NCBI GenBank assembly: GCA_028877145.1
Contig: JAGWOX010000003.1
Location: 1-43,537, forward strand
Length of the DNA: 43,537 nt
From: Acidobacteriota bacterium
GTDB lineage: Bacteria; Acidobacteriota; Terriglobia; Acidiferrales; UBA7541
Direction of reading: 5' to 3'
How positions within the stretch are numbered: the stretch's first letter is position 1; each line of letters starts with the position of its first letter. The notes under the pieces were generated by a model. The model ran no database searches and had not been told where the DNA came from. It was given only the letters and a program-made list of their open reading frames with translations. Shown one piece after another: positions 12,434 through 15,938 of this stretch. A program made the position numbers and the translations under genes.

Positions 12434-14119
12434 TCAGGATTTCGTTGCCGCCGCCGCTTCGGCCGCCGCGAACTGCGGCCGCGTCACCGCGCCCTCGGAC
12501 GCCGACGAAACGAGCGCGGCGTATTTCGCCATCACGCCGCTCGTGTACCGCGGAGCCGGCGGACGCCACGCGGCGCGCCGCGACTCGAGATCGGCATCCA
12601 CGTTCAGCTTTCTCGCCGCCACGTCGAAAGTGATCGGATCGCCATCGCGCACCAAAGCGATCGGCCCGCCCACAGCCGCCTCCGGCGCCACATGCGCGGC
12701 CATCAAGCCGTGCGTCGCGCCGCTGAAACGGCCATCGGTGATCAACGCCACCGTGTCGCCCAGCCCGCGGCCGACCAGTGCCGCCGTCACGGCCAGCATC
12801 TCGCGCATGCCTGGCCCGCCGCGCGGACCTTCGTAGCGGATCACCACCACGTCGCCATCGCGAATTGCGCCTCGCTGCACCGCCTCGAACGCCTGCTCCT
12901 CGCTGTCGAAAACACGCGCCCTTCCCGTGTGCGACCGCCGCTCGTGCCCAGCCAGCTTCACCACGCATCCTTCGGGCGAAAGCGATCCGCGGAGAATCGC
13001 CAGCCCGCCGTGCTTTTCGATCGGATTCGAGAGCGGCCGAACCACCTGCTGCCCGGCGGCTTCCTTCGCGCTACGCGCCTCTTCCTGAATCGAGCGGCCG
13101 GAAACGGTCGCGCAGTCGTGCAGCAGCCCGGCATCGAGCAGACGCATCGCGATCAGCCGCTCGCCGCCAGCGCGCTCGAGATCCGGCGCGGTGTAGCGGC
13201 CAAAAGGTTTCAGGTCGCACAGCAGCGGCGTTCGCGCCATCACTCGGTCAAAATCGTCGATCGTGATTGGGACGCCGGCTTCCCGCGCGATGGCCAGCAA
13301 ATGCAGCACCGCGTTCGTCGAGCCGCCCGTCGCCGCGACCGACGCAAACGCATTTTCGAGACTTTCTCGCGTGATGATTTGGCTCGGCCGCACGCCGTCG
13401 CGCAACAATTGCATCACCAGCGCGCCCGCTTCCCGCGCCACCGCGTCCTTGCGCGGATCGGTGGCCGGAACCTGGTTCGCGCCCGCCGGCGACATCCCCA
13501 AAAGCGACGCGGCCGTCGCCATCGTGTTCGCGGTGAATTGGCCGCCGCACGCGCCCGCGCCAGGGCAAGCGTGGTCTTCGAGGTCCTTGAGCTGCTCGCT
13601 CGTCATTCGTCCCGCGGCGCACGCCCCCACCGCCTCGAAAACGTCCTGAATCGTCACGTCGCGCCCTTCGAAACGCCCCGGCTGGATCGATCCGCCGTAG
13701 AGCATCAGCGAAGGCACGTTCAGCCGCGCGAGAGCCATCAGCGTCCCCGGAATCGTCTTGTCGCAACCCGAGAGCGCCACCACCGCGTCCATCATGTGCC
13801 CGCGCGCCACCAACTCGATCGAATCGGCCACCACCTCGCGCGAGACCAGCGACGCCTTCATCCCCTCGGTCCCCATCGTGATTCCGTCGGAAACCGCGAT
13901 CGTGTTGAATTCGATCGGCGTCCCTCCGGCCGCACGAATGCCCTCTTTGACGGCCGTGGCCAGCTGCCGCAGATGGAAATTGCACGGCGTGACTTCAGTC
14001 CACGTGTTCGCCACGCCCACGAGCGGCCGCTCCAGATCGGCGTCGGTCAGCCCGGTAGCCTTCAGCATTGCCCGTGCCGGCGCCCGCGAGACTCCCTTCT
14101 TGATTCCGTCGCTGTTCAT
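12434..14119 (-). CDS. ilvD: Dihydroxy-acid dehydratase
   Basis: [83 protein letters not shown]. Confidence 0.96.
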
Positions 14120-14340
14120 GTCCCCTGTCGTTCCGTGTCCTCGTTCGGTTTTTCTGCACGGGAGCGCTCGAGCTCCCATAGAAGGCCATTGAACCCAAAC
14201 CGCATGGCATAGTCCAATTTATACTTTTCTCATTGTCCATAAGTTATATTTAGCGACCTTCCGACGAGGTGTCATCCGCCGCTACGTGTACATCGGCCGC
14301 TTCACGCCGCCATCGTTGCTTATTTGTGGAGCAAGAGCGC

Positions 14341-14360: not shown

Positions 14361-14530
14361 CACAGAATCCTCTCCCCATCTCATCCGTGGGGTCACCGGA
14401 TACCCAGGCGCCGCCTCAAGATCTTCAAGGATACGGGGGTCCCGGATCGTCAGGATCGGACCGTAGTTCCGCCTGGGGTCTTCGTCCAAAATCAGCAACC
14501 CCCACTCCCGTCCCAACGCATCCCTGCCGA

Positions 14531-14559
14531 TTGACATGCAACCGAAGCCCGGCTAAAGT
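14531..14559 (+). promoter_or_regulatory. Putative sigma70-type promoter for the leader-aroQ-pheA transcript
   Basis: TTGACA (14531-14536), 17-nt spacer, TAAAGT (14554-14559), about 28 nt before the leader ATG. Confidence 0.6.
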
Positions 14560-14586
14560 GCTGCATCCGGGTATCGGATACGCTCA

Positions 14587-14694
14587 ATGATTTGCGCGAC
14601 GCCATTTCGCTTTAGCGGGTTCCTCTTTACGGGCCGCTTCCTCTATCGAGGGAGCGGACTGATGGAGCCTGCGCTCGCGCGGAGAACCAACTAG
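14587..14694 (+). CDS. Putative Phe leader peptide (attenuator ORF)
   Basis: MICATPFRFSGFLFTGRFLYRGSGLMEPALARRTN*: five Phe in residues 7-18 plus Tyr20; not in supplied ORF track (35 aa). Confidence 0.65.
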   Translation: MICATPFRFSGFLFTGRFLYRGSGLMEPALARRTN

Positions 14695-14723
14695 AAACCC
14701 GAGGGCGAAAAGAGCTTCCAATA

Positions 14724-14758
14724 GGCCGCGACCTCCAGACGAGGTCGCGGCCTTTTTT
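14724..14758 (+). terminator. Intrinsic terminator in aroQ-pheA leader (attenuator)
   Basis: GGCCGCGACCTC-cagac-GAGGTCGCGGCC, perfect 12-bp stem, followed by TTTTTT; 38 nt before the chorismate mutase start. Confidence 0.9.
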
Positions 14759-14796
14759 GTTTTTCGGACAAGAACGGGAAACAAGGAGAGCAGGCC

Positions 14797-15081
14797 ATGA
14801 AACCGATCCACGATCGGGGAAAGAAAATCGATGGAATCGACGAGAAGCTGGTCGAGCTGTTGAATCGACGCGCGCAGCTAGCGATCGAAATCGGCGCATT
14901 CAAGCGCCGCTATCGCCTGAGCGCCATTTCGCCCGCGCGGGAACGCGAGATCCTGCGTCGCGTTTGCGAAACGAGCGCCGGCCCTCTCGACCCGAGAGCC
15001 GTGGCGCGCCTGTTCCGCGCCATCCTGACGGAATCGCGCAAAGCCGCGGCCGTGGCCGCCCCAGGAAAGGAGTCCCAATGA
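14797..15081 (+). CDS. Chorismate mutase, AroQ type
   Basis: GIDEKLVELLNRRAQLAIEIGAFKRR...AREREILRRV...VARLFRAILTESR; AAGGAGAG RBS. Confidence 0.9.
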   Translation: MKPIHDRGKKIDGIDEKLVELLNRRAQLAIEIGAFKRRYRLSAISPAREREILRRVCETSAGPLDPRAVARLFRAILTESRKAAAVAAPGKESQ

Positions 15082-15938
15082 CCGTTCCGGCCGCATATCC
15101 CCGCGTCGCTTTTCAGGGCGAGCGCGGCGCGTTCAGCGAAGAAGCCGCCGTGCTCCTGGTCGGCGAGGAAATCGACCTCGTGCCTCGCCCCACTTTCGAC
15201 GCGCTCTACGCCTCAATCCGCGAAGGAGCGGCCGATCTCGCTCTCGCCCCGGTCGAAAACACGCTGGCTGGCTCGGTGGTTGCCTCGCTCGACCTGCTGC
15301 TCGAGAGCGGCCTGCACGCGGTCGCCGAAGTGATTCTGCCGATCGCCCACTGCCTCATCGGCACGCCCGACGCCGCGTTCGAGCGAATCACGAGCGTAGA
15401 ATCGCACCCGGTCGCCCTCGCCCAATGCGGGCGCTTCCTTCGCGCGAATCCGCAAATGACGCGCCGCGCCACGCTCGATACCGCAGGCAGCGTCCGCGAA
15501 ATCATCCGTGCCGCAGATCCCTCGCGCGCCGCCATCGCCGGCCGCCGAGCCGCCGAAATCTATGGGGGCCGTATCCTGCGCGAGCACATCGAGGATCATG
15601 CCGAAAACTACACGCGTTTCCTCTTGCTTTCCCCCACCCCGCGTACGAACGAGAGCGCCAACCGCCTTTCCCTCGTCGTCGAATTGCGCCACGTCCCCGG
15701 CGCGCTGCATCGCGCCCTCGGCGTCTTCGCCAGCCGCTCAATCGACCTGCTCAAGATCGAGAGTCGCCCCATCCCCGGCCGCCCCTGGCAATACCGTTTT
15801 TACCTCGATCTCCACGCATCCCTGAACGATCCGGCAACGCTCGCCGCGCTCGACGAACTGCGCCAATGCACCGACAGCGTACGCACATTAGGCTGCTACC
15901 CGGCCTACGACCCGACATCGTGCCCTATCCGAGGATAG
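15078..15938 (+). CDS. pheA: Prephenate dehydratase with C-terminal ACT domain
   Basis: RVAFQGERGAFSEEAA, LAPVENTLAGSV, ESHPVALAQC, NYTRFLLLS, ACT region NRLSLVVELRHVPGALHRALGVFASRSIDLLKIESRP; ATGA overlap with the preceding gene. Confidence 0.94.
   Translation: MTVPAAYPRVAFQGERGAFSEEAAVLLVGEEIDLVPRPTFDALYASIREGAADLALAPVENTLAGSVVASLDLLLESGLHAVAEVILPIAHCLIGTPDAAFERITSVESHPVALAQCGRFLRANPQMTRRATLDTAGSVREIIRAADPSRAAIAGRRAAEIYGGRILREHIEDHAENYTRFLLLSPTPRTNESANRLSLVVELRHVPGALHRALGVFASRSIDLLKIESRPIPGRPWQYRFYLDLHASLNDPATLAALDELRQCTDSVRTLGCYPAYDPTSCPIRG

Follow-up and report, generated by a model that had tools for sequence, protein, structure and literature searches.

The closest described system is the pheL-pheA locus of E. 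coli, in which a Phe-rich leader peptide lies before the chorismate mutase/prephenate dehydratase gene and a ribosome on the Phe codons frees an antiterminator. In ilvBNC of Corynebacterium a multi-codon branched-chain attenuator is found, where one leader senses several end products of a branched pathway. Furthermore, the uORFC-13-1 motif has been described from Acholeplasma as a predicted uORF with Phe codons that precedes a terminator and the DAHP synthase gene aroF (PMC8632094). Attenuators of acidobacteria have been stated to be without assigned functions (PMC2965389). We found no description of an acidobacterial leader family with the core FAFTYRF in the open literature, and this family of attenuators across the Acidobacteriota, of which one member is presented here, is apparently undescribed.

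The host is a soil-type bacterium of the phylum Acidobacteriota. Judging from its named relatives, its metagenome-assembled genome probably belongs near Candidatus Acidiferrales. Within the window, that is the whole analysed stretch of 43,537 nucleotides, a sigma-70-type promoter, a 35-codon leader, an intrinsic terminator and a chorismate mutase (CM)-prephenate dehydratase (PDT) operon follow each other along the DNA. The features are:

14531 to 14559, plus strand: sigma-70-type promoter, TTGACA-N17-TAAAGT (10 of 12 consensus positions; conservation)
14587 to 14694, plus strand: Phe-rich leader peptide ORF of 35 codons (translation; orthologous leaders)
14626 to 14640, plus strand: control codons Phe14 (TTT) to Phe18 (TTC), at which a ribosome is predicted by folding to free the antiterminator
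14634 to 14657, plus strand: hairpin 1:2 (anti-antiterminator or pause hairpin), CCGCTTCCTC-TATC-GAGGGAGCGG, 10 bp (folding)
14648 to 14735, plus strand: antiterminator 2:3, 14648-14682 with 14698-14735 (folding; -38 kcal/mol at codon 14)
14723 to 14764, plus strand: intrinsic terminator 3:4, stem of 12-13 bp and T6-G-T5 (pairing; conserved in all aligned orthologs)
14783 to 14789, plus strand: Shine-Dalgarno sequence of the chorismate mutase gene, AAGGAGA (-8.3 kcal/mol)
14797 to 15081, plus strand: chorismate mutase type II, AroQ class (Pfam PF01817, CM_2, E 7e-21)
15078 to 15938, plus strand: prephenate dehydratase with ACT domain, monofunctional PheA (Pfam PF00800 and PF01842, PDT+ACT E 8e-55)

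As in E. coli, a Phe-rich leader thus precedes the genes for chorismate mutase and prephenate dehydratase. Unlike in E. coli, these two are separate genes, a clear Shine-Dalgarno sequence of the leader is missing, and the relatives of the window mix Phe, Tyr and Trp codons. The leader of E. coli pheL has 15 codons, whereas the leader ORF of the window continues across the two arms of hairpin 1:2 and has its stop codon 3' of segment 2. Some relatives place the leader and terminator upstream of DAHP synthase and so resemble uORFC-13-1, which is likened here by its description; that motif belongs to another phylum and has been reported just from Acholeplasma and environmental sequences (PMC8632094). 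The ilvBNC attenuator differs in reading branched-chain instead of aromatic amino acids and in controlling unrelated genes.

The CM_2 and PDT+ACT domains bear out a preliminary description of this DNA, which had placed a Phe-biosynthetic operon downstream of the leader. Both genes overlap by 4 bases, and PheA was detected in 50 of 61 relatives. The divergent neighbour on the minus strand (12434-14179), which we take from its sequence to be ilvD, leaves the plus-strand terminator without an upstream plus-strand gene to serve. On the side of the ilvD promoter, between ilvD and the Phe leader, about 40 nt form a block, CTTATGGnCAATGAGAAAAGTATAAATTGGACTA (window 14203-14252, minus strand). It was kept in three other genomes of the genus and is probably the promoter/operator of the divergent ilv genes.

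The promoter was found base for base as previously described, with TTGACA at 14531-14536, a 17-nt spacer and TAAAGT at 14554-14559. In a consensus scan it was the sole promoter-like site within 2 kb (expected 0.4). All other four genomes of the genus carried a TTGAC-type -35, N17 and a TA-N3-T -10 at the equivalent position, and a TTGACR-type promoter was present 40-85 nt 5' of the ATG in 26 of 28 leaders. The lack of a clear Shine-Dalgarno sequence at the leader ATG, already named as a weak point in the preliminary description, was seen here as well: the best candidate in the window reached -3.8 kcal/mol at a poor distance, compared to -8.3 for the chorismate mutase gene. In the window, about 20 nt of mRNA would precede the leader ATG. 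Elsewhere, several relatives have a weak Shine-Dalgarno sequence and others a near-leaderless layout. At four loci (L021, L057, L077 and L082) the -10 box ends 10-13 nt 5' of the leader ATG, and leaderless or near-leaderless initiation is likely for these leaders, judging from the spacing. The leader ORF is presumably translated in the cell.

Translation of 14587-14694 gave MICATPFRFSGFLFTGRFLYRGSGLMEPALARRTN*, with Phe at positions 7, 9, 12, 14 and 18, Tyr at 20 and the stop codon at 14692-14694; five Phe within residues 7-18 and Tyr20 had been reported before. Such an ORF could in principle be a random Phe-rich reading frame in a GC-rich intergenic region that happens to hold a terminator. 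Indeed, the consensus scans for promoters and terminators are weak on their own, since 2 terminator-like sites were found in comparison to 1.7 expected. However, among ORFs of 12-60 codons the criterion of at least 5 Phe per 12 residues was reached by a single one on the two strands of the 43.5-kb window, the leader itself, and by none in 400 dinucleotide shuffles of 14520-14800. Moreover, chance is refuted by conservation of the unit through genus, family, order and phylum, and we regard it as virtually out of the question.

Each of the four further genomes of the genus retained promoter, leader, hairpins and terminator. Outside of the genus the leader of CM-pheA reads YFAFTYRF(P/S)F. Besides the rest of the order, its carriers include Terriglobia (for example Candidatus Angelobacter) and the class Blastocatellia, among the latter the cultured Pyrinomonas methylaliphatogenes K22. 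Orthologs without the ORF or the Phe run, named in the preliminary description as possible counter-evidence, were not encountered: the genus as well as other families and classes retained promoter, aromatic leader and terminator. A covariance model built from 12 relatives identified the unit in 25 of 61 relatives and, within the order, in 43 of 95 genomes and 12 of 17 genera. Each positive genome carried exactly one copy, which in the own genome spans 14618-14759.

A DNA pattern for FAFTYR yielded 16 matches in 396 genomes of the phylum. By inspection, three of these (L111, L116 and L121) precede a chorismate mutase gene; the others look like chance or antisense matches in other genes. Within a single family of the phylum (f31), the stretch FAFTYRTISYIDWPTP is found repeatedly (L112-L115). 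It was rejected as a leader and is apparently antisense to a conserved gene.

The window unit is one case of a phylum-level family, in which the leaders usually contain Phe and Tyr codons and often Trp codons when DAHP synthase is the target. With it, the Acidobacteriota provide a conserved family of aromatic amino acid leader peptides that is amenable to experiment, with the cultured strain K22 among its carriers.

Across 28 leaders, F/Y/W made up 50% of the core codons in frame 0, compared to 4% and 14% in the other frames and to a background of 7% in the proteins of the window. Of 196 codons in the seven-codon stretch after the hairpin, which encodes the peptide tail, none was F/Y/W. At the flanking positions the aromatic codons TTT, TTC, TAT, TAC and TGG replace each other, as expected under selection for aromatic codons. 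The central Phe codon (window 14626-14628) was TTT in 27 of 28 orthologs and TAT in the remaining one. Two codons upstream of it, all 23 leaders with a Phe used TTC, and four codons downstream of it 20 of 21 did. The genes of the window favour TTC over TTT (88 to 34). The preliminary description had anticipated conserved Phe codons with synonymous drift. Drift was present at the flanking aromatic codons; fixed codons were found at the centre (TTT) and at the next Phe (TTC).

Codons -2, 0 and +4 of the core are thus fixed down to the third position, and strong conserved hairpins are located ahead of the terminator. Both observations would suit a structured RNA, such as a riboswitch, a T-box or a protein-binding attenuator, with direct sensing of Phe or tRNA and an ORF that is there by coincidence. 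We consider this very unlikely, because the aromatic enrichment in frame 0 and the interchange of F, Y and W codons require translation. By folding, part of the third-position fixation is accounted for by pairing in an extended 1:2 helix, which explains the fixed TTC codons of the core at least in part. Furthermore, searches of the Rfam families, T-box included, at the gathering threshold and with E up to 10 gave just unrelated chance matches below threshold. Under the same thresholds the Rfam covariance model of the Phe leader (E. coli pheL type) and the T-box model gave no match. Since the Phe leader model did not match, it is plausible that the unit was built independently of the E. coli attenuator.

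The terminator between leader and first structural gene has a stem of 12 perfect pairs (14724-14735 with 14741-14752) and a T6-G-T5 tract behind it, in agreement with the 12-bp stem with T6 at 14724-14758 proposed earlier. The antiterminator, which was absent from the preliminary description, occupies its whole 5' arm. RNAalifold on a MAFFT alignment of 28 sequences recovered nothing but the terminator, since the lengths of segments 1 and 2 differ between lineages. For this reason the structure was tested sequence by sequence with a ribosome-position scan. Formal covariation within the order was no better than in shuffles, since the sequences are conserved and the pairs hardly vary. Between lineages the antiterminator sequence is replaced wholesale, with GGAAGCU:AGCUUCC in the genus and CGAAAC:GUUUCG or CGAGAC:GUCUU elsewhere. 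The equivalent of hairpin 1:2 was 99% paired over 12 relatives, and that of the antiterminator 92% paired in relatives compared to 29-43% when slid.

In the scan, the RNA 3' of the ribosome was folded with the ribosome set at each leader codon. For the window, an antiterminator in its full form (-38 to -37 kcal/mol) was predicted only with the A-site at codons 13-17 and was largely retained at codon 18. This plateau (codons 12/13-17) was essentially insensitive to the assumed footprint (10-16 nt). Ribosome positions further 5' let hairpin 1:2 (14634-14657) form, which takes segment 2; near the stop codon, the competing structure reached just -3.5 to -8 kcal/mol. Some weak sequestration of the terminator arm was also seen at codons 26-33 (about -8 to -10 kcal/mol).

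Averaged over 27 orthologs, among them the lineages with exchanged antiterminator sequences, sequestration of the terminator's 5' arm was most probable (0.75-0.78) at the central Phe and the three codons after it (FTYR, codons 0 to +3), with 0.53-0.62 before these and 0.34-0.49 from codon +5 on. The antiterminator had -40.8 compared to -30.8 in shuffles and surpassed the shuffle mean at every locus (Wilcoxon p 1.5e-8). E. coli pheL, used as positive control in the same scan, gave the same profile. As computed by folding alone, the codons predicted to free the antiterminator coincide with the conserved Phe/Tyr core. In the full-length RNA of the window at equilibrium the terminator had a probability of at least 0.99 for every ribosome position. 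It always wins under these conditions, so read-through must be kinetic. Textbook attenuators are likewise decided kinetically.

The geometry of the antiterminator follows the aromatic codons at 27 loci, which also bears on a further explanation, namely that the ORF encodes a functional small protein, possibly trans-acting, which is merely situated ahead of an ordinary terminator. The core FAFTYRF is kept over two classes, and trans-acting leader peptides are known, for example peTrpL of Sinorhizobium, which is described as such (PMC7298713). A free-standing microprotein does not explain this geometry, however, and the C-terminal half of the peptide is variable, follows the RNA helices and lacks aromatic residues. 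We regard a small protein of this kind as extremely unlikely; the data leave room for an additional trans role of the leader peptide.

Taken together, the unit is very probably a ribosome-mediated transcription attenuator of the Phe branch. The original reading as a Phe-codon attenuator is supported by the conservation, by the freeing of the antiterminator at the conserved Phe/Tyr codons and by the profile shared with E. coli pheL. The parts, their conservation and the match of control codons to antiterminator-freeing codons were obtained from the sequence itself, from comparisons or from folding. The mechanism is that of a classical ribosome-mediated attenuator, the principle of which is textbook knowledge from E. 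coli, in a family of its own.

According to the proposed mechanism, transcription would start near 14566 and a ribosome would begin the 35-codon leader. With ample charged tRNA-Phe, the ribosome would reach the stop codon (14692-14694) and cover segment 2, and the 3:4 terminator would form before CM-pheA. If Phe-tRNA is short, it would stall on Phe12-Phe18 and break hairpin 1:2 (14634-14657). The freed segment 2 (14648-14682) could then pair with 14698-14735, so that the terminator is blocked and CM-pheA is transcribed. If a ribosome never starts, hairpin 1:2 would form and transcription would terminate. We infer such Phe-dependent termination and its kinetics for the cell.

A TTT codon kept at the centre despite a background preferring TTC possibly reflects selection on decoding speed. 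The near-invariant core FAFTYRF, with this codon and the fixed TTC of the next Phe, might also act beyond codon counting, either by nascent-chain arrest that senses free aromatic amino acids or as a trans-acting leader peptide, and so coordinate CM-pheA and DAHP synthase across the Acidobacteriota. This extension is speculative and appears very unlikely to us.

The genes controlled differ between lineages. In the genus of the window the leader precedes a CM-pheA operon, the control region contains Phe without Tyr (FTGRF or FSGRF) and no DAHP synthase is encoded on the pheA contig. Most relatives have a CM-pheA-DAHPS operon, and Phe together with Tyr in the control region. Ahead of DAHP synthase alone the leader type was found in G008, G011, G015, G016, G020, G030 and G035, and six of these seven leaders hold Trp codons (e.g. 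MQTRYYYWFAFTYRFPWVGSGQGRIARDSR). The leader was also present in G006, G018 and G028, with the order leader, CM and then DAHPS in G018. At L132, L133, L134, L135, L140 and L147 the target of the leader is switched from CM-pheA to DAHP synthase, and Trp codons are found there.

A strict rule, by which a Trp codon occurs only with DAHPS in the operon, failed: of the verified DAHPS-first leaders 6 of 7 contained W, but so did 7 of 32 CM-first ones, counts that ignore relatedness. The codon content thus tends to follow the controlled genes, though not strictly. This forms a natural series, in which Phe, Phe+Tyr and Phe+Tyr+Trp tend to track CM-pheA, CM-pheA-DAHPS and DAHPS alone, respectively.

Upstream of the two DAHP synthase loci of the own genome (L182 and L183) no convincing leader with terminator was found. 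In a congener of the window (G004), a second, unrelated-looking aromatic leader with a terminator, VIQTYANAPWYYRFWGFRLGR* followed by GCCCACTCGAAGCGAGTGGGCTTTTT, is located before a DAHP synthase (L184, G004:C36:35200-36040).
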